Source: Pseudomonadales bacterium
GTDB taxonomy: Bacteria > Pseudomonadota > Gammaproteobacteria > Pseudomonadales > Azotimanducaceae
Reading direction: 5' to 3'
NCBI GenBank assembly: GCA_022827905.1
Contig: JAJEIQ010000071.1
Location: forward strand, 1-64,000
Length of the DNA: 64,000 bases
Of the stretch, positions 32,453-46,616 are shown piece after piece (position 1 is the first letter of the stretch; each line of letters starts with the position of its first letter). The notes beneath the pieces were generated by a model. The model was not told where the DNA came from. It saw only the letters and a program-made list of their open reading frames with translations, and did no database searches. A program made the position numbers and the translations under genes.

Positions 32453-33327
32453 CGCAGGCGAATCAGTCCTTCCTGGGTGGCTGAGGCCACCAACTCGCCG
32501 GCTTGGCTGTAGATCAGCCCTCGGGTGAGGCCCCGGGCACCGCTGGATACCGGGCTGTCCTGAACGTAGAGCAGCCATTGGTCGGCGCGAAACGGGCGGT
32601 GGAACCACATGGCGTGATCCAGGCTCGCCACCTGCAGACTGTCATCGAAGTAATTCACCGCGTGCGGCAGCATGGCGGTGTCGAGCAGCGACCAGTCGGA
32701 CAGGTAGGCCAGCACGCACTGGTGCAGGCGGGGGTCGTCCAGCAACCGGTCCCGGGCCCGCATCCAGCACATTTGCCTCGGCACCTCAGTGCTTGGTTTG
32801 TAGATGTTGACCGGGTTGACCGGTCGGATCTCGACGGGCCGCTGCCGCGCGTAGGGTTCCGGCAGTCCCGGTGGCCGGTCCTTGGCATACCGCGCCCGCA
32901 CAGCCTCCTCGTCCTCCAAGGTCTCCGGATCCGGGGCGTCCGGCATCTCGAACTGATGCGCGAGGCCCCCTTCGTCGATCTGGAAGGAAATGGACATGGC
33001 GAAGATGGCCTCGCCGTTCTGAATGGCCACCACCTGCCGGGTGGTGAAGCTCTTTCCATCGCGTATCCGGTCCACGGTGTAGAGGATGGGGGTGTTCATC
33101 TCGCCAGGGCGCAGAAAGTAGCCATGCAGGGAGTGGGCATTGCGGCCTGGCTCCACCGTGCGCGAGGCGGCGACCAGCGCTTGGCCGATGACCTGCCCGC
33201 CGTAAACCCGCTGCCAGCCCTCATTGGGGCTGGTGGCCCGGTAGTGGTTCCGCTCGATCGTCTCCAGATCCAGCAGCCGGATGACGTCCTGAAGGCTTTG
33301 CTCCACGGCGCTGGCTGTTGCGCTCAA
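32449..33327 (-). CDS. tesB: Acyl-CoA thioesterase II
   Basis: A 292-residue double-hotdog thioesterase that hydrolyses acyl-CoA to free fatty acid and CoA. Typical stretches are [42 protein letters not shown] and [19 protein letters not shown], the last holding the catalytic Asp. [18 protein letters not shown] is the C-terminal Thr/Gln region. The start is a TTG at 33327 overlapping the ahcY stop; an in-frame GTG at 33306 is an alternative. It is coupled to both neighbours. Confidence 0.93.
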
Positions 33328-34700
33328 TACTTGTAGTCGGCGGGCTTGAAGGGGCCCTGCCGGTCAACGCCGATGTAGCTGGCTTGGTCGGCGGTTAGCC
33401 TGGTGAGCACGCCGCCGAAGCCCTCCACCATGAGTGCCGCCACCTGCTCGTCAAGCTGTTTGGGCAGCACTTCCACGCTCACCGGCGCCCGCTGGTTCTC
33501 CGGCTGGTCGGCCCAGCGTTCCTGGTAGAGGTGCATCTGCGCCAGCACTTGGTTGGCGAAGGAGCCGTCCATCACCCGCGAGGGGTGGCCCATGGCGTTG
33601 CCGAGGTTCACCAGCCGCCCCTCGGAGAGCAGGATAAGGTAGTCGGATGCCGCATCGCTGCGGAACACCTGGTGCACTTGGTCCTTGACCTTCTCCCAGC
33701 GCCAGTGCTCGCGCATGTAGGCGGTGTCGATCTCATTGTCGAAGTGGCCAATGTTGCAGACCACGGCGCCGGCTTTGAGGCTGGTAAGCATGTTGGCGTC
33801 GCAGACGTTGCTGTTGCCGGTGCAGGTGACCACTAGGTCGGTATCGCCCAGCAGTGCCGCATCGATGTCCTCCAAGACACCGGTGTTGAGGCCGTCCCGA
33901 TAGGGGGAGACCAATTCAAAGCCGTCCATGCAGGCCTGCATGGCGCAAATCGGGTCGGCCTCCGCCACGCGCACGATCATGCCCTCTTGACGCAGGCTTT
34001 GGGTGGAGCCCTTGCCCACGTCGCCGTAGCCGATCACCAACGCCCGCTTGCCGGCCAGCAGCATGTCGGTGCCGCGCTTGATGGCATCGTTCAAGCTATG
34101 GCGGCAGCCATAGCGGTTGTCGTTCTTCGACTTGGTGATCGAGTCGTTGACGTTGATCGCCGGGGTCTTGAGCTCGCCTTTGCGCAGCATCTCGAGCAGG
34201 CGGTGGACACCGGTGGTGGTCTCCTCGCTGATGCCGTGGACGGCCTTGAGCATGGCCGGATAGCGCTCATGCACCATCAGCGTGAGGTCGCCGCCGTCGT
34301 CGAGCAGCAGGTTGGCGTCCCAGGGGGCGCCGTCCTTGAGGATGGTCTGTTCGATGCACCACTCGTACTCCGCCTCGGTTTCGCCCTTCCAGGCGAACAC
34401 CGGGATGCCTTGGGCCGCCATCGCCGCTGCCGCGTGATCTTGGGTGGAGAAGATGTTGCACGACGACCAGCGCACCTCGGCACCTAGGGCGATCAAGGTT
34501 TCAATGAGCACCGCGGTTTGCACGGTCATGTGGATGCAGCCGATGATGCGCGCGCCAGCCAGCGGCTGCTCCGCTTCATAGCGCCGGCGCAGGGCCATCA
34601 AGGCTGGCATCTCCGCTTCGGCCAAGGCGATCTCCCTGCGTCCGAAGTCAGCGAGCGCGATGTCGGCGACCTTGTAATCGTTAAAGGCGGTGTCGGGCAT
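33324..34700 (-). CDS. ahcY: Adenosylhomocysteinase
   Basis: A 458-residue NAD-dependent enzyme that splits S-adenosylhomocysteine to adenosine and homocysteine, clearing the product of SAM-dependent methylation. The NAD-binding motif GYGDVGKG lies at 224-231. [42 protein letters not shown] and the C-terminal [21 protein letters not shown]-type ending are diagnostic. The ATG at 34700 is chosen because AAGGA lies nine bases upstream; an ATG at 34718 is in frame. No SAH riboswitch was recognised in the 216-base leader. It heads an operon with tesB and glutaminyl cyclase. Confidence 0.96.
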
Positions 34701-34916
34701 GGATGAATCCTTGTGCATTTTGGCGGCTAGGAGAGCCCTCGCCGCGTCGACGCAAAGCGCCGGGCGGGGAGAGTGGGGCGCGAATGCTAACAACGCAGGA
34801 CGGTCTCGGCAAAGTTCACGGCCAAAATGAGAACTGCTGGTTGAATCGTCGTTGACGTTGAAATTCGCTGTGCGGGTGCGCCAGAATCCGCCCTCCCCCC
34901 AACTCGCGGTTGTCCA

Positions 34917-36089
34917 TTGGCCATAGCAGAGCACTCCACGGCGGGCGGCTTGGACAGCAAGCTGCCTGAAGTCGGCACCACCATATTCACCGTCATGTCG
35001 GCATTGGCTGCGGAAGAGGGCGCCCTGAACTTGTCCCAGGGCTTCCCTGATTTCGACGGGCCGCCGGAGTTGCTTGGGCGGGTGCAGCACTACCTCACCC
35101 ACGGCTACAACCAGTATCCGCCCATGGCGGGGGTTCAAAGCCTGCGCGAGGCGATCGCGAGCAAGGTGCTTGATCTGTACGGTCTCGCCGCGGATCCCGA
35201 GACCCAAGTCACGGTAACCTCCGGCGCTACGGAAGCGCTGTTCTGCGCAATCACGGCGGTGGTGCGGCCCGGCGACGAGGTCATCCTATTCGATCCGGCC
35301 TACGACAGCTATGAGCCGGCGGTGCAGCTGTCCGGCGGCGTGGCGCGCCACGTTCCGCTCAAGCCGCCCACCTACGGCGTCGATTGGGATCGGGTGCGTG
35401 ACGCCATCACGCCGCGAACCCGGCTGGTGATCTTCAATACGCCGCACAACCCAACCGGCACGGTGTGGTCGCACGACGATTTGCGCTGCCTTGAGGCCTT
35501 GGCCCTCGACCACGGCCTGCATGTGCTGTCCGATGAGGTTTACGAGCACATCATCTTCGACGGTCAGGCCCATCAGAGCGTTTGCCGCTTTCCCGACCTG
35601 TGGCGGCAAAGCTTCGTGGTGTCGTCCTTCGGCAAGACCTACCACACCACCGGTTGGAAGATCGGCTACTGCGTCGCTCCGGAGCATCTGACCGCGGAGT
35701 ATCGCAAGATTCATCAATTCGTGACCTTCACCTCCAACACGCCGGTGCAGCACGGCTTGGCGGATTTCCTCAATGCACACCCGGAGCATCACTTGGAGCT
35801 CGGCGCCTTCTATCAACGCAAGCGCGACCTGTTTTGCGCCCTGCTTGAGGGGAGCCGCTTCAGCCTGACGCCCAGTGCGGGCACCTACTTCCAACTGCTC
35901 GGCTACGAGGGCATCAGCAACGAGCGCGACAGCGAGCTGGCGGTGCGCCTGACCCGTGAGGCCAAGATCGCGTCCATCCCGGTATCGATCTTCTACGCCG
36001 ACGGCGCCGACCATAAAATGCTGCGCTTTTGCTTCTGCAAGGATGACCGCACCCTGCGCCAAGGCGCCGAAATCCTGCTTGGGCTGTGA
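34917..36089 (+). CDS. Methionine aminotransferase, PLP-dependent (YbdL-like)
   Basis: A 390-residue class I aminotransferase close to E. coli YbdL (386), which transaminates methionine and some aromatic amino acids using 2-oxo-acids. Pyridoxal binding is at Lys240 ([13 protein letters not shown]). Other motifs are [14 protein letters not shown] (~38-51), [23 protein letters not shown] and [10 protein letters not shown]. The N-terminus [18 protein letters not shown] aligns well with YbdL, supporting the TTG start. The omega-amidase gene follows after three bases; such pairs reclaim 4-methylthio-2-oxobutanoate in methionine salvage. Confidence 0.93.
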
Positions 36090-37438: not shown

Positions 37439-38854
37439 TTGAAGCCGCTCGTTCCCGTGGTGTTGGCCGGCGGCGTTGGCAGCCGATTGTGGCCCTTGTC
37501 CAGGGCGCTGTATCCCAAGCAGTTCCATGCCTTGTTCGGCGAACGCTCTCTGCTGCAGAACACCGTGTTGCGGGCCGCCGCCGTTACGGACCGGCCGCCG
37601 ATTGTCATTTGCAACGAAGACAACCGCTTCTTGGTCGCTGAGCAGTTGCGGGCGCTGGATCTGGCTTGGCAGTGCATTGCATTGGAGCCGGAAGGCCGCA
37701 ACACCGCGCCGGCCATTGCGTTAGCCGCCCATCTCGCCGCAGCCGAAGCGGAGGGTGCCCAACTGCTGGTGCTGCCGTCCGACCATCTAATCGATCAGCC
37801 CGAACGCTTTGCCGCTGCCGTGAAGTCCGCCCAAACCGCGAGCGAGAGCGGTTCGGTGGTGGTGTTCGGCATCGCGCCCACTTGTGCAGAAACTGGATAC
37901 GGCTACATCGAGTTGGAGACCGACCCGCAGCACGGCGTCCAGCCGGTCAAGTCCTTCGTCGAAAAGCCCGATCGCGACCGAGCCCGCGCCTTCGCCGCCT
38001 CTGGCCGCCATCTTTGGAACAGCGGCATGTTTTTGGTGGATGCCGACGTGGCGCTGGCGGAGATTCGGGCGCACAGCCGTGAGATGGCCGAAGCCGTGGC
38101 CGAATCCGTGGAAACGGGTCGGTCCGACCTGGAGTTCTTTCGGCCGGGCGATGCCTTTCTGCGCAGCCCCAATGCCTCCTTCGACGTGGCGGTGATGGAG
38201 CGGACCGCCCGGGCCGCCGTGCTGCCGGTGGACTTTGGTTGGAGCGACATTGGCTCTTGGGAGGCGGTGCTGGAGGCATCGGAGGCGGACGGGCGCGGCA
38301 ACCATTTTTCCGGCGATGTGTTGCCCGTGGATGTGGATGGGACCCTGATTCGAGCCGACCATCGGCTGGTGGGCGCTATCGGGGTCGATGGGTTGGTCAT
38401 CGTGGAAACCGCCGATGCGGTGCTGGTTGCCGATAGAGGCCGGGTTCAGGAAGTCAGCGCCCTGGTGGCGCAGCTCGGTGCAACTGATCGCTCCGAGCAC
38501 CTTCTGCACAAGGAAGTGTACCGCCCTTGGGGCAGCTACGAAGGCGTCGGCAGCGGGGAGCGCTACCAAGTAAAACGCATCAAGGTAAAGCCCGGCGCCA
38601 GCATCTCGCTGCAACTGCACCGGCACCGCGCCGAGCACTGGGTGGTGGTGCGGGGCGTGGCCGAAATCACCCGCGGAGAGGAGACCTTCTCACTGTCCGA
38701 AAACCAGAGCACCTACATCCCCCAAGGCACCAAGCACCGGCTGCGCAATCCCGCCGATCAGACCTTGGAGCTCATCGAGATTCAGGTGGGTGACTACCTG
38801 GGGGAGGACGACATCGTGCGGTTCGATGACTTGTATGGGCGGGGTGAGGGTTGA
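37439..38854 (+). CDS. manC: Mannose-1-phosphate guanylyltransferase / mannose-6-phosphate isomerase
   Basis: A 471-residue bifunctional enzyme of GDP-mannose synthesis. The nucleotidyltransferase signature VLAGGVGSRLWPLSR lies at ~8-22, with NTAPAIALAAHLA, LVLPSDHLI, FVEKPD and NSGMFL following. The C-terminal cupin isomerase domain has VKPGASISLQLHRHRAEHW (~380-399, metal-binding His) and ENQSTYIPQGTKHRL. The start is a TTG with AGGAGG eleven bases upstream. GDP-mannose feeds polysaccharide or glycolipid synthesis, fitting the minus-strand glycan genes that converge on it. Confidence 0.94.
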   Translation: MKPLVPVVLAGGVGSRLWPLSRALYPKQFHALFGERSLLQNTVLRAAAVTDRPPIVICNEDNRFLVAEQLRALDLAWQCIALEPEGRNTAPAIALAAHLAAAEAEGAQLLVLPSDHLIDQPERFAAAVKSAQTASESGSVVVFGIAPTCAETGYGYIELETDPQHGVQPVKSFVEKPDRDRARAFAASGRHLWNSGMFLVDADVALAEIRAHSREMAEAVAESVETGRSDLEFFRPGDAFLRSPNASFDVAVMERTARAAVLPVDFGWSDIGSWEAVLEASEADGRGNHFSGDVLPVDVDGTLIRADHRLVGAIGVDGLVIVETADAVLVADRGRVQEVSALVAQLGATDRSEHLLHKEVYRPWGSYEGVGSGERYQVKRIKVKPGASISLQLHRHRAEHWVVVRGVAEITRGEETFSLSENQSTYIPQGTKHRLRNPADQTLELIEIQVGDYLGEDDIVRFDDLYGRGEG

Positions 38855-39641
38855 AGCTTGCGACAACCTCGATTAGTTCGGCGCGGATCCCAGCGTCGAG
38901 ATCGTCAATTTGAACGATTATCGTGGGCATGCCCGTTTCGCTGATGATTGACGACGCGAGGTCAAATCCCCAATTCATGGTCATTAGCGCACCATCGGGC
39001 TTGGTTGGATCTCCGTGATAGATAGGTTCCAAATGGTGCTCGATTTCACCCGATGGAGTTCGAGTCGCCCTCCGCTCACTTGCCTTGGCACCATTAACCA
39101 GAGGAACAGTGAAAATGTGTGCGCCACCGGGTTTCAAGACCCTGCCTATTTCTCGGAAGGCCGCATGGGGGTCGAAAACGTGTTCCATGACGTCTTGGGT
39201 AACGAACAGGTCGAACTGTTCGTCGTCGAAAGTCAGACGTTCGAGGTCTTCGCAGCGCCGCCCGCTTTGCGTATCGACCGCGCCAAGGGTGACCTCCTCC
39301 AACAGGAATGAGGAGCTGTAGGATGGGCATTCGTCGGCCAAGCGCTTGCTTACGCCTCGGCCAACCGGAGAGGATTCGTGAATCCGCAGTTCGGCATATT
39401 TGGGAAAGAACTGCTTAATCACCCGCATCAAAGCGCGTTCACGAGGAATCGACCCGCAGCCGCTGCAGACCAGATGATCCCTGAACCAACTGTGGTGCGC
39501 CACGAACGTGACTTTGTCCTCGCAGATGTCACAGGTTCCTTGGTGGCTGAAGTGCTTAGTCGCTGCAGAACTTGTCGCGTCCGCTCGTTTCTTGTTCTTG
39601 AAAAGTCGTGTTCGAAGTGGATGCGCAATGCGTTTGAACAT
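38772..39641 (-). CDS. Class I SAM-dependent methyltransferase with N-terminal Cys-pair (zinc-like) site
   Basis: A 289-residue methyltransferase. A possible zinc site is formed by CDICEDK (~37-43) and CSGCGSI (~59-65). The methyltransferase fold follows: LRIHESSPVGRG in place of the usual Gly-rich motif I, then FDLFVTQDVMEHVFDPHAAF and IGRVLKPGGAHIFTVPL. It begins at an ATG with GGAGG four bases upstream. The frame overlaps the end of manC by 83 bases tail to tail and its last ~25 residues are Pro/His rich, so the original stop may have been lost. It is the last gene of the minus-strand glycan operon. Confidence 0.8.
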   Translation of the reverse strand: MFKRIAHPLRTRLFKNKKRADATSSAATKHFSHQGTCDICEDKVTFVAHHSWFRDHLVCSGCGSIPRERALMRVIKQFFPKYAELRIHESSPVGRGVSKRLADECPSYSSSFLLEEVTLGAVDTQSGRRCEDLERLTFDDEQFDLFVTQDVMEHVFDPHAAFREIGRVLKPGGAHIFTVPLVNGAKASERRATRTPSGEIEHHLEPIYHGDPTKPDGALMTMNWGFDLASSIISETGMPTIIVQIDDLDAGIRAELIEVVASFNPHPAHTSHRTARCRPPPGSHPPESR

Positions 39642-39691: not shown

Positions 39692-40882
39692 CTAAACCTT
39701 GAAGCCGATCAAAAGGTCACGCCAGAGTTGATGTTCTGAGCCCCGGACGCACTGCACCCGTGCGAAGCCGCCCTCGGCCAGCATGAAGTCCTCAATCCAA
39801 GCACTGTCGTAATCCATGCCGATCCGGCCACCGTAATGGTCTTCGGAGGACTCGCCCATCTCCAGGACGCATAGGCGTTTGGTTTTTTGGAACAGCCAGC
39901 GCATGCATTCCAAGCCGCTTTCCGGCCCGCGCTGGATCATCACCCACTGGAAGACGCTGAATGCAGAGGTGACGTCGAAGCGCTCATCCGGCGTGCTGCC
40001 CAGATACTTGTAGGCGTTGGCGACCTCGTAGGTGGCCAAGTCGCGGCGAAAATAGGTGCTGAGCAGTCGGGCTATGCGGATATCATTGGCCGTGACGTCC
40101 ACCCCCTTGGATGTGAAACCCGCTTTCGCCATGCCGTGGCAAAAGAACCCGGTGTTGCAGCCTATGTCCAAGTAGGATGCGTGCGCCTGCGGCAAGCCCT
40201 CGTCTGCGCAGACAGCCAGCATGAGGTCGAGCCGCTGCTGGCTGTCCTCCCGGTTGACTTGCCATTTGCGGCACTCCGGCAGTTCAATGGGTTGGTACGT
40301 TGCATCGGTGCCGGGGAACGGCTTCCCCTCACGGAGGCATTCGATGATCTCCGTCTTGGCCTGCGTCTGCAGGCGCACGAAGCACGCCTTGCAGACCGAC
40401 TCAGTTCGATTCTCATGGTCGTGGACGAAGAAGTGGCTGGCCTCTCGCCGTTCGCAAGCCTGACAAGTCAGAGTCAGGCGGGTGGCCCGGTGCCCGCGCT
40501 TTTTGAGCGCCTTGATTTGGGGGTCGCTGGGTGCTGCGATCAACAACTCGGCACCCCGGTTTGCCGCAGCGCACCAATGCTCGACCAGACGTTCCCCAAA
40601 GTGGTGGGCCTCATCAAAGGCCAACAGGGCGTTGGGTTCGGCTTCGCTGAGCAGTTCAACGCAGTGGTCGGCGGATACGAAGTGATCCAAATGGGTGCGC
40701 AGCCCCGAGCGGGAGCTCATTCTGCGACGCCCGGTTAGGTTGCGGCGGCTGCGCAGCCGCGGCGAATCGCCGCACAGAAAGGTCGCGGTAGTCCGACCGG
40801 CTTTCTGCGCTTCGGCGACGGCGAGGATCAGCTTCTCGGTCTTTCCCACGCCGGGCAGGCCGGTAAGGATAGTTATAGGCAT
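39692..40882 (-). CDS. Thymidine-kinase-like P-loop domain fused to a SAM-dependent methyltransferase
   Basis: A 396-residue fusion. Residues 1-~170 follow the plan of type II thymidine kinases: P-loop GLPGVGKT (8-15), SRSGLRTHLDHF, Walker-B-like LLAFDEAHHFGER (86-98), then a zinc ribbon with CQAC (140-143) and CKAC (164-167). Residues ~205-396 form a methyltransferase with motif I LDIGCNTGFFCHG (238-250), GVDVTANDIRIARLL and FDVTSAFSVFQWVM. The P-loop and DEAHH suggest nucleotide binding, but the kinase lasso and substrate residues cannot be confirmed. It starts nine bases after the giant glycosyltransferase gene and probably modifies a glycan or nucleotide sugar. No fusion of this kind is familiar to me. 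Confidence 0.75.
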   Translation of the reverse strand: MPITILTGLPGVGKTEKLILAVAEAQKAGRTTATFLCGDSPRLRSRRNLTGRRRMSSRSGLRTHLDHFVSADHCVELLSEAEPNALLAFDEAHHFGERLVEHWCAAANRGAELLIAAPSDPQIKALKKRGHRATRLTLTCQACERREASHFFVHDHENRTESVCKACFVRLQTQAKTEIIECLREGKPFPGTDATYQPIELPECRKWQVNREDSQQRLDLMLAVCADEGLPQAHASYLDIGCNTGFFCHGMAKAGFTSKGVDVTANDIRIARLLSTYFRRDLATYEVANAYKYLGSTPDERFDVTSAFSVFQWVMIQRGPESGLECMRWLFQKTKRLCVLEMGESSEDHYGGRIGMDYDSAWIEDFMLAEGGFARVQCVRGSEHQLWRDLLIGFKV

Positions 40883-40891
40883 GGTTGCGGG

Positions 40892-43800
40892 TCAGGGGGC
40901 TGCGTCGGCCCGATGGACCTTCCGGTCGGTGGCCGGGGCATCCTCGTCCAAGTCGAGAATCTCCCTTAGCACCTTGACGCCTGCCTCCAGGGTGTGACTC
41001 TTGCGCATGGCGGCAAGGCCCCCTTTCCTGAGTTGTCGCCAGACGGCTTCGTCGCAGTATGCGGCCTCAAGATGCTGCGCCCATTTCGCCTTGTCGCTGG
41101 CCACGAGAATGTCGCGCCCGTCCTTCAGGTTCATTCCTTCGGCGGCCACCGGGGAGGCGACCACGGGAACTCCGTGGCAGAGGCTTGACACCACCTTGCC
41201 CTTGGCGCCAGCGCCGTAGCGCAAAGGCGCGACGGTCAATCGGATTTGGTCGAACAGGCTGGCGAGATCTTCGATGTAGCCGATGGTTCGAACGCCTTCC
41301 GATTCTTGGAGCCGCTCCACCTCGACCGGCATCTGTGCGCCGCCTAGGATGAGTTCCGCACTGGGTACGGCGGCATGGAAGGACGGCCAGATTTCGTGGA
41401 CGAAGTGGCGCACGGCGTCCAAGTTGGGTTCATGCAGGTAGTTGCCGATGAAGGCGATGCCGTGTCGCTTGCTGAAACTTGTCTTTCCGGTGCCGGGGAT
41501 TTCGCGGATCAGTGGCATGTGAAACACCGGCGTGCCGTCAACAGCATCCTTAAGCAGGTCCTTCTCGTGGTCGCTTACCACGACGATGGCATCGGCCTTG
41601 CGCGCTAGCTGGAGTTCGGTCTTTTTCGTGAGCTCTGCCTGTTTCCTTAGCCTTTCGGAATGTTCCGTTTCTGCCTGCCGCGCCTCGCGGATATGGTGTA
41701 GATCGACGGTATGGAAGACGATGCGGGCGTTGTGGCAATGAGTCCTCAGGAGCGCTGCCCATTCCTTGAATACGCCAACACGGTGGACCAGCACGTAGTC
41801 GATGTCCTTGCCGGCCTGCTTGAGGTAGCGTTTGAGCGAGTCGCAATAGGGTGCGTAGAGCATCTCGACACCGAGCCGCTGCAAGTCGTCCGTATAGCTT
41901 CCGTAGTAGTCCAGATCCCGGTGGCCGGCGAAGACTGTCTTGATACCCAAGCTTCCCAGCATGCGTACTAGATTGAAGATGTCTGCTGAGCCGGAGTCGT
42001 GGTCCGGCATCGGGACCGCCCAGTCCATGACCAGAGCACGGCCCTTCACGCCCCGGTCCTTGGCGAGGTCGGCCGGGGAATCCGGTGTGAGATGGCTAGC
42101 CTCCAGCGTTTTTCGCCATCGCTTCAGGAACCTGAGGCGGTTTTCCGCTTGGTAGCGCTTTTCGCCTTGGGACAGATCGGTGCCGCAGGTGGCGCCTTCG
42201 CTGTGCACGATTTTGGCGAAGGGCTGGTAGAGCACCCGGTATCCTGCTTCCCGGACGCGGAAGGCAAGATCGGTGTCTTCGTAGTAGGCGCGAACGTAGT
42301 AGTTGTCGAACCCTCCCAACTCGCGCCACAGTACGAGCGGCAACATGATCGCGGCACCGCTGCAGTAGTCGGCGTCGCGAACATAGTTGTATTCGGGCTT
42401 GCGGGGATCGTCGCCGCGGCCAAAGTTCATGGCGGAGCCGTCCGACCAAACGATGCCGCCCGCTTCTTGCAGGCTACCATCCTCGAAGTAGAGCTTTGCG
42501 CCGACTAGGCCTACGTTTTCCTGAACGTCAAAGGTGTCAGCAAGGGCGTCGATGGCGCCGTTTTCAACTGTTGCATCGTTGTTCAGCAGCAAGATGTAGC
42601 TGCCCCGAGCCAGCGCCGCGCCGCGATTGCAGGACTTCAGAAAGCCTAGGTTTTCGTCGTTGCGCACATAGCGGATGCCGGATAGCGATGGCAGCACGTC
42701 GGCGCTTTCATCAGGAGATGCGTCGTCCACCAGAATCACTTCGAATGTCCGCTGGCCCTCCAAGTCGCTCAGGGACTTGAGGCAACGCAAGGTGAGATGG
42801 CACTTTCCGTGGACGGGTATCACGACGGACACATCGGGCTTGCGGGGGCAGGGCAACTGGATGCCGGCTGGCGTCGCCGAGTATGCCGGACCGACCGGAA
42901 CCACCTGTTTCGAGACTAGCGCTTCGGTGCCGGACTTTGAATCGCCCGCCGCAGCGGGATGGAGCCGCACTGGATCCGCCGGCTGCCGTGCGACCTCTTC
43001 CACGGCGTCCCGAGTCGCCTGCAGAAAGGCGTAGCCGAATCGCTGGTCGGGTTCGAGATAGGCTCCCTCCCCCCATTCGTTCCAAGCGTTGACGAATAGC
43101 AGTCGTTCATCCTTGGAACGGTCTTGAGCGAGCGTCCAGCGCATTGCCGAGCGCAGCCAACGGCCGTAGCCCGCTGGCGAATTGCCTTGAAACAGATGCG
43201 CCTCAGACTTCCGGCGAGGTGTATTGTCCCAACCCGGCATCACGCCGCGAATCTGGGTCCAGGGTTGCTCGGGCTGCACTTCACACTTGGTTGCGTAGTC
43301 CTGCCAATCGAACACATAGCCGCGAAAGTCGGACTTGGGGGGAACCAAGTGGGTGGTGATGTCGGTCGGCAGCCCGGTGTGCCATGGAAACTCTACAGCG
43401 GCGTCTATGCCATATGGTCTTGGGTCCAGAATCTGAAACGACTGAGCCATCGCTATGTACAGCTCCCCGACGCCGTTTTCGCGGCACCACTCGCGCCACC
43501 TGCCAAATGTCTCTGAAGCCTTTGGAAAAAGTGCTGGCCGATAGACCAGCAGCAGCGGGCGGTCGTCGATGCGGATGTATCTGGGATCCTTGAGGTATCG
43601 GGAGATGTACTGGATGAATTCCAAGTCGTCGTCAGGGGAGTGCTGTTGGCCGATCAGCAGGTCCTGTTCCCTGCCATCCCAGCGCCGCGTCCAGTTTTCA
43701 TTTGCCCAGCACAGGCAAAACGGCAGATCCATGGAGGGGTCTTCGAGATAGTTGAGCAGCGGCGTTTCCAGCAGCCGGTGGCCAGCGAACCAGTAGAAGT

Positions 43801-45565
43801 AGAAGCAGAATCCGCCGATGCCGTAGCGCTTGGCAAGCTCCACCTGCCGACGCTGAACATCCGGATCGCGCAGATCGTAGTAGCCAGAGTCGATGGGCAC
43901 CCGAGGCTGGTAGTGGCCCGTGAACTGAGGCGTTGCCGTGCGCACGTTGGTCCACTCGGTGAATCCCGAGCCCCACCAGGCATCATTTTCCGGTATGGAG
44001 TGGAATTGGGGTAGATAGAAGGCGATCAGCCGCACGTTGCTTGATGGCGGGGGAGCGCCCCTGAACTCCGGCACGAAGAGGGCATGCTCGGTCTGGCTGT
44101 CCATGTCCAGCGTGGCGATGGCGGCGGCGCTTGGTGTTGGGGTTGTTGAGGACCGAAGCCAACGGCGCATTCGATGGGGAATGAGGCGCGCCACCCATCG
44201 GGGCGCGTGCCGACGGTAAAACGGCAAGACGGCATGGGCAGCCTTGCGAAGCTGGCCAGTGCCTAGCCAGCCGACGATTTTCGCTAAGAGCAGGCATCTG
44301 CGAAGCAGCCGACCGAAGGCGAGTTTGGACCATCGCAAGGGCGCTGTAAGCCGCCAACTCGAAGACTCCAATAGGCTGGCGATGCGCCGTTCCCGCTCGT
44401 TGACGGCCGCCATGAGGGACGCGATCTGGTGTCGGGCATTGGTTAGGGCGTCGCCCAATGAAGCAAGCTTGCGCTCCTGGCTGTCGATCATGGCCCGTTG
44501 TTCCGCGACTTCCCCGGCCTGCTCCGCGATTTCCTCAGCCTGTCGGGCTGTCGCTTGGCGCAGGGTCTCCGCTTCGGCTGCCGTTTGGGTGACTACCCGC
44601 TGCAGCTCGTTGGTTCGGACTGTTTCGGCCTCCAAAAGGCTCGCCAGTTCATTACGCTCCCCTTCCAGCCTTCGCGCACTGTGCATTGCCCGCCGCCCGA
44701 GCTCGATGGGACGGCCAAAAAGCGGACCCAGTGCGTTCAAGCTGGACCGAATCTCGTCAAGGGTTGCGATGTCTGAGTCCCTTTCCTTACCGGCGGACCA
44801 CCTTTGCAGTATCTCGTAGGTTTCGGATACCCATCGGATCGCCTGGCTGTCCGGCTCAATCGCATCCCTTGGGTCGGCATGATGGCGCAGGTCGGGTGTC
44901 AGGAAGTCGGCGACTTCCAGATCCGTAGCGCTCGAAATTCTCGGCCAGGACACTTCAAGCGCCTCTCCGATACGGGTCACGAGGTTGCGCCAATCATTCA
45001 ACAGCTGGTCAAAGCGCACGGTGACTCGTTGGCAACGCCGACTGCCAGCCTCGGCGTCGAGGACATGCCTCAGCCACAACAGATGGCCGATCGACGGATC
45101 GATGTCGTCTCTGCGCTTGAGAGAGGCGGCGACATCTCGCGGATTTCGGATTGGCATGACGACCAACGGCGTGGCGTCGCAGGACTCGATGACCTTGATC
45201 CACAAGTCCATCAATCGGCAGAAGCGTGGATCCTTGACTACAAACAGGCGGCTCGGCCCGAATTCGGCAGCTAGGACCTCACGGGCCTCGTCAAAGTACT
45301 GGGGATGGAGCGGAGACGCGTACCAACTTGAGTTGATGGGTTCCCAGTCGTCCCAACTCGAACCCGCAGAGGCCAGAATCTCGTTGTTCAATTCGAATAT
45401 GCGCTGCGATTCCCAATGGCCGCGCTCGTTGCCTCGGTTGTCGCCGCCCATTGGCGTATTGGGCATGTCGCATCCCACTAGGTTCAGTGTTCGGCTGAGG
45501 GCCGAAGTGCCGCTGCGGTGCATGCCAGCGATGATGATCGCTTTGGCTGGATTCTCCTTTTCCAT
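40892..45565 (-). CDS. Giant multidomain glycan enzyme: sulfotransferase, coiled coil, WbsX, GT2 and GT4
   Basis: A 1557-residue protein. Residues ~8-290 are a sulfotransferase (IIIAGMHRSGTSALSRTL; PAPS-like Arg/Ser in MPIRNPRDVAASLKRR). Residues ~290-405 are Glu/Gln/Ala-rich coiled coil ending in SSSWRLTAPLRW, a phrase common in large glycosyltransferases. Residues ~510-855 are a WbsX/GH99-like domain (LIAFYLPQFHSIPENDAWWG, FTEWTN, FVNAWNEWGEGAYLEP). Residues ~909-1130 are GT2 (VSVVIPVHGK, VDDASPDES, LLNNDATVENG, YYEDTDLAFRVREAG). Residues ~1170-1540 are GT4 (FIGNYLHEPNLDAV, LRYGAGAKGKVVSSLCHGVP). It probably builds and sulfates a surface polysaccharide. It starts 36 bases after the next sulfotransferase gene. 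Confidence 0.88.
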   Translation of the reverse strand: MEKENPAKAIIIAGMHRSGTSALSRTLNLVGCDMPNTPMGGDNRGNERGHWESQRIFELNNEILASAGSSWDDWEPINSSWYASPLHPQYFDEAREVLAAEFGPSRLFVVKDPRFCRLMDLWIKVIESCDATPLVVMPIRNPRDVAASLKRRDDIDPSIGHLLWLRHVLDAEAGSRRCQRVTVRFDQLLNDWRNLVTRIGEALEVSWPRISSATDLEVADFLTPDLRHHADPRDAIEPDSQAIRWVSETYEILQRWSAGKERDSDIATLDEIRSSLNALGPLFGRPIELGRRAMHSARRLEGERNELASLLEAETVRTNELQRVVTQTAAEAETLRQATARQAEEIAEQAGEVAEQRAMIDSQERKLASLGDALTNARHQIASLMAAVNERERRIASLLESSSWRLTAPLRWSKLAFGRLLRRCLLLAKIVGWLGTGQLRKAAHAVLPFYRRHAPRWVARLIPHRMRRWLRSSTTPTPSAAAIATLDMDSQTEHALFVPEFRGAPPPSSNVRLIAFYLPQFHSIPENDAWWGSGFTEWTNVRTATPQFTGHYQPRVPIDSGYYDLRDPDVQRRQVELAKRYGIGGFCFYFYWFAGHRLLETPLLNYLEDPSMDLPFCLCWANENWTRRWDGREQDLLIGQQHSPDDDLEFIQYISRYLKDPRYIRIDDRPLLLVYRPALFPKASETFGRWREWCRENGVGELYIAMAQSFQILDPRPYGIDAAVEFPWHTGLPTDITTHLVPPKSDFRGYVFDWQDYATKCEVQPEQPWTQIRGVMPGWDNTPRRKSEAHLFQGNSPAGYGRWLRSAMRWTLAQDRSKDERLLFVNAWNEWGEGAYLEPDQRFGYAFLQATRDAVEEVARQPADPVRLHPAAAGDSKSGTEALVSKQVVPVGPAYSATPAGIQLPCPRKPDVSVVIPVHGKCHLTLRCLKSLSDLEGQRTFEVILVDDASPDESADVLPSLSGIRYVRNDENLGFLKSCNRGAALARGSYILLLNNDATVENGAIDALADTFDVQENVGLVGAKLYFEDGSLQEAGGIVWSDGSAMNFGRGDDPRKPEYNYVRDADYCSGAAIMLPLVLWRELGGFDNYYVRAYYEDTDLAFRVREAGYRVLYQPFAKIVHSEGATCGTDLSQGEKRYQAENRLRFLKRWRKTLEASHLTPDSPADLAKDRGVKGRALVMDWAVPMPDHDSGSADIFNLVRMLGSLGIKTVFAGHRDLDYYGSYTDDLQRLGVEMLYAPYCDSLKRYLKQAGKDIDYVLVHRVGVFKEWAALLRTHCHNARIVFHTVDLHHIREARQAETEHSERLRKQAELTKKTELQLARKADAIVVVSDHEKDLLKDAVDGTPVFHMPLIREIPGTGKTSFSKRHGIAFIGNYLHEPNLDAVRHFVHEIWPSFHAAVPSAELILGGAQMPVEVERLQESEGVRTIGYIEDLASLFDQIRLTVAPLRYGAGAKGKVVSSLCHGVPVVASPVAAEGMNLKDGRDILVASDKAKWAQHLEAAYCDEAVWRQLRKGGLAAMRKSHTLEAGVKVLREILDLDEDAPATDRKVHRADAAP

Positions 45566-45601: not shown

Positions 45602-46414
45602 CTAGGCTTCCGATGACCGCGTTTCGGCGTGTTCGCCGTTGTGCGTGCTTGCCAACTCCATAGCGTTTTCTCTTGCGAGCGCCGCCTGAACCTCCTTCAG
45701 GTTTAGAACCATTTCGCTGTTGTTCTTGATGATTTTCACCAGTGGCGTGGAGAGCGGACGACTGTCGATGCCCAGAAACGCTTGGACGTCGTCCAGGGCG
45801 GACGACTGCGGAGACACAACATCCTCGTAGGCGATGGTCAGGCTTCGGTGGTCCCGATAGAGGTCAAACGCGGCTTGCTGCCTTTGCTGTACGTCGTTGA
45901 TATAGGCCATGAAGTGATCGATGTCCACCGTGAAGGGCGCCACCTGTGGCCGGTCGTCCTTTGTCCGCAGCAAGGTCAAGCCGGTCTTCTCGACGACTCT
46001 GTGGGAAACGTACTGGTCGAGCAGATTTCGCCGGATCAGGTGAATGATCTTGATGTCCTTGTCGGCGGCGATGACCTCCCGAATTGTTTTGAAGCTGGGC
46101 TGAAACGCCTCATCCGTCTTGAATTTGAAGCCGACGCACCGGCGGCCCTGGGGATTGAAGGCAATGTCGTAGAGGAACCTCTGCGGGTGCTGGTCCCGGT
46201 AGCGGCGAATTTCCCGCCCGAAATCCGGGTTGTCCTTGTTCATCCGTACGTAGATGCCGGACAGCGGCGGCTGCTGCTGGGCAAGGACTTCGCCGTGGCA
46301 GATCGCTTGGGGATGCGAGCGGATCAGGGTGCACAGCATGGTGCTGCCACTTCGGGCCGCGCAACTAACTAGGAACTTGTCATCGCGAAAGTGCATGGGC
46401 AGGGTCGGCAGCAT
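45602..46414 (-). CDS. Sulfotransferase of the LPS/Stf0-like type
   Basis: A 270-residue PAPS-dependent sulfotransferase. The cofactor loop is VSCAARSGSTMLCTLIRSHP (~13-32) and the 3'-phosphate region is IIHLIRRNLLDQYVSHRVV. GFKFKTDEAFQP, ending in basic and aromatic residues, is typical of carbohydrate sulfotransferases. The ATG at 46414 (MLPTLPMHF) is chosen because the upstream extension is Cys/Arg rich and unlike the family. It is the first gene of the minus-strand glycan operon and may act on the same polymer as the giant protein downstream. Confidence 0.85.
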   Translation of the reverse strand: MLPTLPMHFRDDKFLVSCAARSGSTMLCTLIRSHPQAICHGEVLAQQQPPLSGIYVRMNKDNPDFGREIRRYRDQHPQRFLYDIAFNPQGRRCVGFKFKTDEAFQPSFKTIREVIAADKDIKIIHLIRRNLLDQYVSHRVVEKTGLTLLRTKDDRPQVAPFTVDIDHFMAYINDVQQRQQAAFDLYRDHRSLTIAYEDVVSPQSSALDDVQAFLGIDSRPLSTPLVKIIKNNSEMVLNLKEVQAALARENAMELASTHNGEHAETRSSEA

Positions 46415-46616
46415 GGTTGGCTGGGAACGCGAGGCGGGTACCTCCAAGGCTTCTAGAATACCGCCTTGGCGCTCTGGGCCGCAAGCACTGCACTCAGTAC
46501 GATCTGTGTTGTGCCGCGCTTGGCAGGCCAAGTCTCATCCGGCCAACCCACGCAGTGGCCTTGGCTGCCAGACGACCACCATAGCCATCACTCCCGAGTC
46601 TCGGCATTGGAGGAAA

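Follow-up and report, generated by a model that had tools for sequence, protein, structure and literature searches.

Type II thymidine kinases (TKs) are known for thymidine salvage. Their P-loop, DE pair, four-Cys zinc ribbon and fold (PF00265; structures 1xx6, 2ja1 and 2orw) are all shared by the protein described here, which differs from them in falling under the Pfam cut-off and in being joined to a methyltransferase. WbdD, the O9a O-antigen kinase-methyltransferase (4azs), likewise carries its methyltransferase and its kinase on a single chain, and the accessible part of its description has both act on one acceptor (PMC3482155). The WbdD kinase, however, has another fold and is attached to the opposite side of the methyltransferase, so that the domain order is reversed with respect to our protein, and WbdD carries a coiled coil after the methyltransferase. 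In Klebsiella pneumoniae O7, ORF6 joins a methyltransferase to a kinase that, in the part of the report available, is unlike that of WbdD in sequence and predicted structure (PMC11231755). The O7 protein thus resembles ours in pairing a methyltransferase with a non-WbdD kinase domain, although the same partial source gives that kinase as AmiN-like, not a TK, and accompanied by coiled-coil and glycosyltransferase modules. WbdD and O7 ORF6 together, as far as this source goes, provide a precedent for methyltransferases paired with different kinase domains.

The window analysed here, a 64,000-nucleotide stretch of a Pseudomonadales genome, harbours on its minus strand a fusion gene (39692–40882, ATG start, TAG stop; all fusion coordinates below refer to this strand) for a 396-residue protein. 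A type II thymidine-kinase-like domain (residues 1–174, 40361–40882) is followed by a class I SAM methyltransferase domain resembling that of WbdD (residues 178–396, 39695–40351). Along the sequence come the P-loop GLPGVGKT (residues 8–15, 40838–40861), a Walker B motif with a putative catalytic Glu, DEAHHF (residues 90–95, 40598–40615), the zinc Cys pairs C140-x2-C143 (residues 140–143, 40454–40465) and C164-x2-C167 (40382–40393), separated by a lasso of 20 residues, and the methyltransferase motif I LDIGCNTG (residues 238–245, 40148–40171), which falls within a Methyltransf_11 match. The first-pass annotation had reported the P-loop, DEAHHF and both Cys pairs in TK order, together with a full motif I in the C-terminal half; all are present in the open reading frame, and the two-domain architecture that it proposed is right, being shared by the window protein and every one of the 10 relatives found. 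The assignment of the halves as TK-like and methyltransferase exceeds chance. The annotation also knew of no described enzyme with this pair, and our search of the open-licence literature, with narrow terms, found none either.

The fusion is a small, rare bacterial family. Among 97 near genomes (own included), one full-length relative was found, in G001 of the same genus, with 54% identity over residues 1–395. A second genome, G007, retains a start remnant between unrelated genes (around 1501–1605 of its locus; residues 1–54 at 59%, or 1–35 by profile), which indicates that the fusion gene can be lost. The 20 other weak matches in the 97 genomes concern the methyltransferase half, except for one in G064 (residues 121–311, four stops). 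When the N-terminal profile was run against 206 genomes of the family, 17 scored at E ≤ 0.01: nine that carry the complete domain, the window's own genome among them, then the G007 remnant, six genomes of one other genus and one at 0.006. The six range from 1.6e-5 to 4.2e-4, five reading as TKs, one of which Pfam assigns to TK at 5e-49. Further afield, a 9-row profile at E ≤ 1e-8 found the domain in 2/390 genomes of an order sample, 1/398 of the phylum and 1/303 of the class (own included each time), and at E ≤ 1e-5 in 2/140 genomes of the family of G474 (G474 itself and G1007). A full-protein search of phages, plasmids and viral contigs gave no relative. A single-sequence scan of genome contigs likewise gave none, and a scan with a two-row profile gave one record. 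Three viral loci raised by N-terminal profiles were discarded after inspection by eye, one as a RecD-like helicase (L088) and two as Zot-like (L042 and L043); their matches cover 28–29 residues at the P-loop, or residues 1–91 for L043. A defence-system reading was also set aside, the PADLOC match of the window protein being weak (PDC-S41, E 0.014). The methyltransferase half of one longer relative (L044) matches PADLOC mad2 at E 5e-9, a match that the window protein does not show at E ≤ 1 and that we judge to reflect general methyltransferase resemblance.

The searches yielded 11 fusion proteins in all, one of them cut by a contig end, and each of the 11 has both halves; the 11-row alignment used below leaves out the G007 remnant locus (L024) and a shortened copy in G195. 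Nine are longer forms (eight of 529–571 residues as aligned, the cut one of 497) that end in an additional domain of about 130 residues, absent from the window protein and from the protein of locus L002. Pfam scans of four longer forms gave no match for this domain, and its best PDB sequence match is at E 0.35; it occurs in 8/206 genomes, always within the fusion protein or its G195 copy. It carries a GYW-D-W motif and forms the C-termini of L029–L035, L044 and L054. No intact lone half of either kind was found, and the only partial copies are those of G195 and G007. Specifically, a methyltransferase profile at E ≤ 1e-12 retrieved from 180 family genomes eight fusions and the shortened G195 copy, with no intact lone methyltransferase. 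The G195 copy (L105, 1120–1785) retains only the methyltransferase end and the extra C-terminal domain, without the TK-like half and motif I. Since it lies inside its contig, lacks these parts and adjoins a sulfotransferase frame that is also short, it probably arose by deletion or through an assembly fault.

The two halves share their descent: trees of both place the window protein and L002 on one side and the nine longer forms on the other. Four close pairs among the longer forms have dN/dS values of 0.085–0.198 for the TK-like half and 0.057–0.081 for the methyltransferase half, so both halves are under purifying selection there. Distant pairs have a saturated dS: the ratio of their TK-like halves is 0.225 between the window protein and L002 (dS 2.3) and 0.079 between L032 and L033, and the methyltransferase ratio cannot be computed. 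Saturation makes purifying selection less certain for the window lineage, in which both halves are nevertheless probably kept by selection too.

As to which P-loop family the N-terminal half belongs to, the annotation had proposed a profile check against thymidine kinases and had named a better match to another P-loop family as a result that would count against it. Searched with the 9-row profile against all PDB chain sequences, TKs are the first six matches and eight of the first nine, the best reaching E 1.5e-4 over the whole sequence and 1.6e-3 for its best single stretch. Ahead of the first helicase (E 0.27), the matches other than TKs are RSC8 (0.012) and ClpE (0.084), and both align in the zinc part. 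Profile–profile comparison depends on the TKs supplied: with five E. coli-type TKs, AAA_30 (63.6) and AAA_22 (55.9) score above TK (50.9), but with 10 TKs the order is reversed (TK 82.2, AAA_30 63.2, AAA_22 57.4), and over residues 1–120 alone TK and AAA_30 tie. Evidence from single sequences and small profiles is weaker or mixed. In the window protein Pfam finds no TK at E ≤ 1, and AAA_22 below threshold (4e-4); NCBIfam gives thymidine kinase at 1.1e-3 (19 bits against a cut-off of 183), and PHROGs a Zot-like family at 3.4e-3, with thymidine kinase at 9.1e-3 for L044. Among five further fusion proteins, Pfam lists TK only for L035, at 15.7 bits against a cut-off of 20.6. The predicted structure has a TK fold across the P-loop domain and zinc ribbon (residues 1–174); an initial model, for which two sequences were used, was of low quality (pLDDT 56.8), and its fold matches are taken as supporting only. 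A better-fitting P-loop family was therefore not found in the fuller tests (PDB profile search, 10-TK comparison and fold matches), although one did come out ahead in the 5-TK comparison and drew level over residues 1–120.

Residue conservation bears on whether this domain could still transfer phosphate. The P-loop GLPxxGK[ST] is found in 10 of the 11 rows, the eleventh being cut by a contig end before its N-terminus. D90, E91 and A92 are invariant (11/11), and in the alignment E91 stands opposite the Glu of DEAQ in TKs; the corresponding Glu is named as the catalytic base in the accessible part of a TK structure paper (PMC4433323), a correspondence that we set by the aligned DE motif. The four zinc Cys are likewise conserved in 11/11, the first pair as C-x2-C in two and C-x-C in nine. 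One alternative makes the domain a nucleotide sensor or an ATPase, gating the methyltransferase without phosphorylating anything. This would suit a lasso of only 20 residues throughout the family, yet with P-loop and Walker B retained, and it would suit the fit of generic AAA/RecA-like P-loop profiles to residues 1–120. Retention of the Walker B-adjacent Glu and of the TK zinc ribbon in every member argues against it, as does the invariance of R46, N48, M55, R58 and D66 between the P-loop and Walker B, which seems to go beyond the needs of nucleotide binding. We regard a purely gating role as somewhat unlikely.

The most pronounced departure from TKs lies around the thymidine pocket. The spacer between the Cys pairs is 20 residues in 11/11 fusions and 34 in 10/10 TKs from related genomes (five of which come from one genus); it is 29 in Thermotoga maritima TK, counted in the alignment, and 29 in L. 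major TK by the residue numbers in the accessible part of its paper (PMC4433323). Type II TKs thus have a lasso of 29–34 residues with an Arg and a Tyr, both of which the fusions lack. The Arg stands nine residues after the second Cys in 10/10 TKs, presumably equivalent to L. major R153, and neither Arg nor Lys occurs at +9 or +10 in any of the 11 fusions; the Tyr four residues before the third Cys is found in 10/10 TKs and 0/11 fusions. The loop preceding the zinc part, D-F-x-G in 9/10 TKs, is replaced by PS..Q. With the lasso cut and its Arg and Tyr gone, thymidine is an unlikely substrate to judge from the sequence, and with no full-length lasso the protein would not count as a strict thymidine kinase.

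These changes weigh on a second alternative, that the fusion is still a deoxynucleoside or nucleotide kinase whose methyltransferase acts on the same nucleoside or nucleotide. The TK fold speaks for it, as does a phosphoribosyltransferase gene close to the fusion in four loci (L048, L049, L052 and L053; adjacent in three, identified by Pfam in L052 only). In vaccinia TK, however, the accessible part of the source describes a thymine ring held by backbone contacts between the lasso and the core domain (PMC1636055), and it is this lasso that is shortened here; moreover, in the flanks as read, no nucleotide-salvage gene was seen beside the fusion in the other loci. A retained nucleoside specificity appears decidedly unlikely.

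The C-terminal half is more readily placed, and the profile check suggested for it bore out the earlier reading. Three Pfam methyltransferase families exceed their cut-offs, with Methyltransf_11 at E 1e-7 over residues 238–330, and a comparison with PDB sequences gave WbdD at E 7e-11. WbdD is the closest solved relative by both sequence and fold, sharing the methyltransferase fold over the whole length; UbiG and ChlM are the next fold matches, and UbiG is also the next sequence match. WbdD Tyr16, Arg36 and Asp82 align with Y196, R217 and D262, invariant in 11/11, so that the SAM residues (Arg36 and Asp82) and the Tyr essential for methylation are retained, the last within an equally invariant Y196-Q197 (40292–40297) aligned with WbdD Tyr16-Gln17. 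The phosphate-handling His132-His133 pair, essential in WbdD, is by contrast replaced in all 11 proteins by Gln-Trp (Q312-W313, 39944–39949). Towards the end of the fold match, where Arg203 of the WbdD phosphate site also falls, the fusions have an invariant R388; the fold match yields no residue pairing, and the sequence alignments end before Arg203. No eukaryotic-like protein-kinase family was found in the window protein at E ≤ 1 (Pfam and NCBIfam), and the chain ends at residue 396 with no coiled coil. As the His pair, the kinase fold and the coiled coil are missing, the fusion is not a member of the WbdD family, though it may work as a kinase-methyltransferase pair in its own right.

We tentatively favour, at somewhat short of an even chance, a bifunctional tailoring enzyme that phosphorylates a hydroxyl other than that of thymidine and methylates the same acceptor. 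The two folds on which this builds are present in the predicted structure; kinase activity, a common acceptor for both halves and the sequence of the steps are inferred. The N-terminal domain, as a TK-fold kinase with a rebuilt thymidine pocket, would employ its P-loop and Mg-ATP and, with E91 acting as the base, transfer phosphate to a hydroxyl of some non-thymidine substrate. The WbdD-like domain would methylate that same acceptor with SAM, either at a hydroxyl or at the added phosphate. One acceptor with two modifications is the most economical reading. In favour of the tailoring enzyme are the kept kinase residues, the shortened lasso, the inseparability of the halves, the selection on both and the likeness to WbdD. 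Against it stand the loss of WbdD His132/His133, the reversed domain order and the lack of a shared pathway among neighbouring genes; besides, a TK-like fold is no proof of phosphotransfer, and generic P-loop families also fit residues 1–120. A more specific proposal, that the TK fold has been diverted from nucleosides and that a methylated phosphate is made on a non-nucleoside acceptor via the Gln-Trp site, we consider unlikely as it stands.

The surroundings of the window copy lend partial support to the glycan acceptor that the first-pass annotation had considered. A gene (40892–45565) that ends 9 bases before the start of the fusion gene, likewise on the minus strand, encodes a 1557-residue protein that in one chain combines Pfam matches to WbsX, GT2 and GT1 with a sub-threshold sulfotransferase-like N-terminus. 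A stretch of this protein looks like coiled coil by eye. A sulfotransferase gene lies at 45602–46531, and a manC-like gene is close to the fusion on the other strand. Around this small glycan island, the remaining frames that were scanned are mostly housekeeping-like, and some are matchless. The fusion precedes an adjoining second methyltransferase frame (38772–39641, minus strand), in which Pfam covers only the second half of the domain, N-terminal CxxC pairs are visible by eye, and 83 bases overlap the opposite-strand manC-like frame. Elsewhere in the window, an S-adenosylhomocysteine hydrolase frame (33324–35207, minus strand) is unusually long at 627 residues with a TTG start, which is probably mis-set.

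The relatives do not share this setting. Their flanks comprise 123 open reading frames of at least 110 residues in 10 loci, 20 of which, from eight loci, were scanned with Pfam, and the remainder judged from BLAST pairs and by eye. The scanned set contains one GT9 glycosyltransferase about 4 kb off, with BLAST partners in two sister loci, and one sulfotransferase adjoining the fusion, with a partner in one sister locus; of the others, two are matchless and the rest include cation efflux, phosphoribosyltransferase, acyl-CoA dehydrogenase, DEAD helicase and aspartate-kinase-like genes. The sulfotransferase-family genes beside the fusion (L050, 8101–9018, by Pfam; L051, 5145–6068, by BLAST), like the one near it in the window, may be there by chance. 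No run of glycan genes and no shared pathway was seen in the flanks read; such a run was seen at the window copy only. Since the neighbours differ, a glycan setting is not a family trait on the flanks read. The glycan idea therefore holds in part: WbdD is the best solved relative and the window copy adjoins glycosyltransferase and sulfotransferase genes, but the relatives' flanks and the absent His pair do not bear it out. A sugar or glycan end is a plausible acceptor for the window copy only.

The same observations bear on a narrower form of the tailoring-enzyme explanation, in which the fusion caps glycans as WbdD does, phosphorylating the non-reducing end sugar, methylating that phosphate and so ending chain growth. 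WbdD as top match of the methyltransferase, the invariant equivalents of Tyr16, Arg36 and Asp82, and the multi-glycosyltransferase and manC-like genes next to the window copy would all fit such a role. The missing His132-His133 site and coiled coil do not, nor do the flanks of the 10 relatives, where no run of glycan genes was seen and a single GT9 gene lies 4–8 kb from the fusion in three loci. We consider chain-end capping quite unlikely.

Returning to the broader tailoring-enzyme reading, a TK core that has been kept while much of the lasso was lost and a WbdD-like methyltransferase was gained suggests reuse of the fold for other acceptors. The fusion would then represent another kinase-methyltransferase pair that was assembled independently, and if the non-nucleoside reading is true, a further kinase fold would be used for methylated phosphate beside those of WbdD and O7 ORF6. 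The window protein offers a short, expressible representative of the family on which such reuse of the TK fold may be tested.
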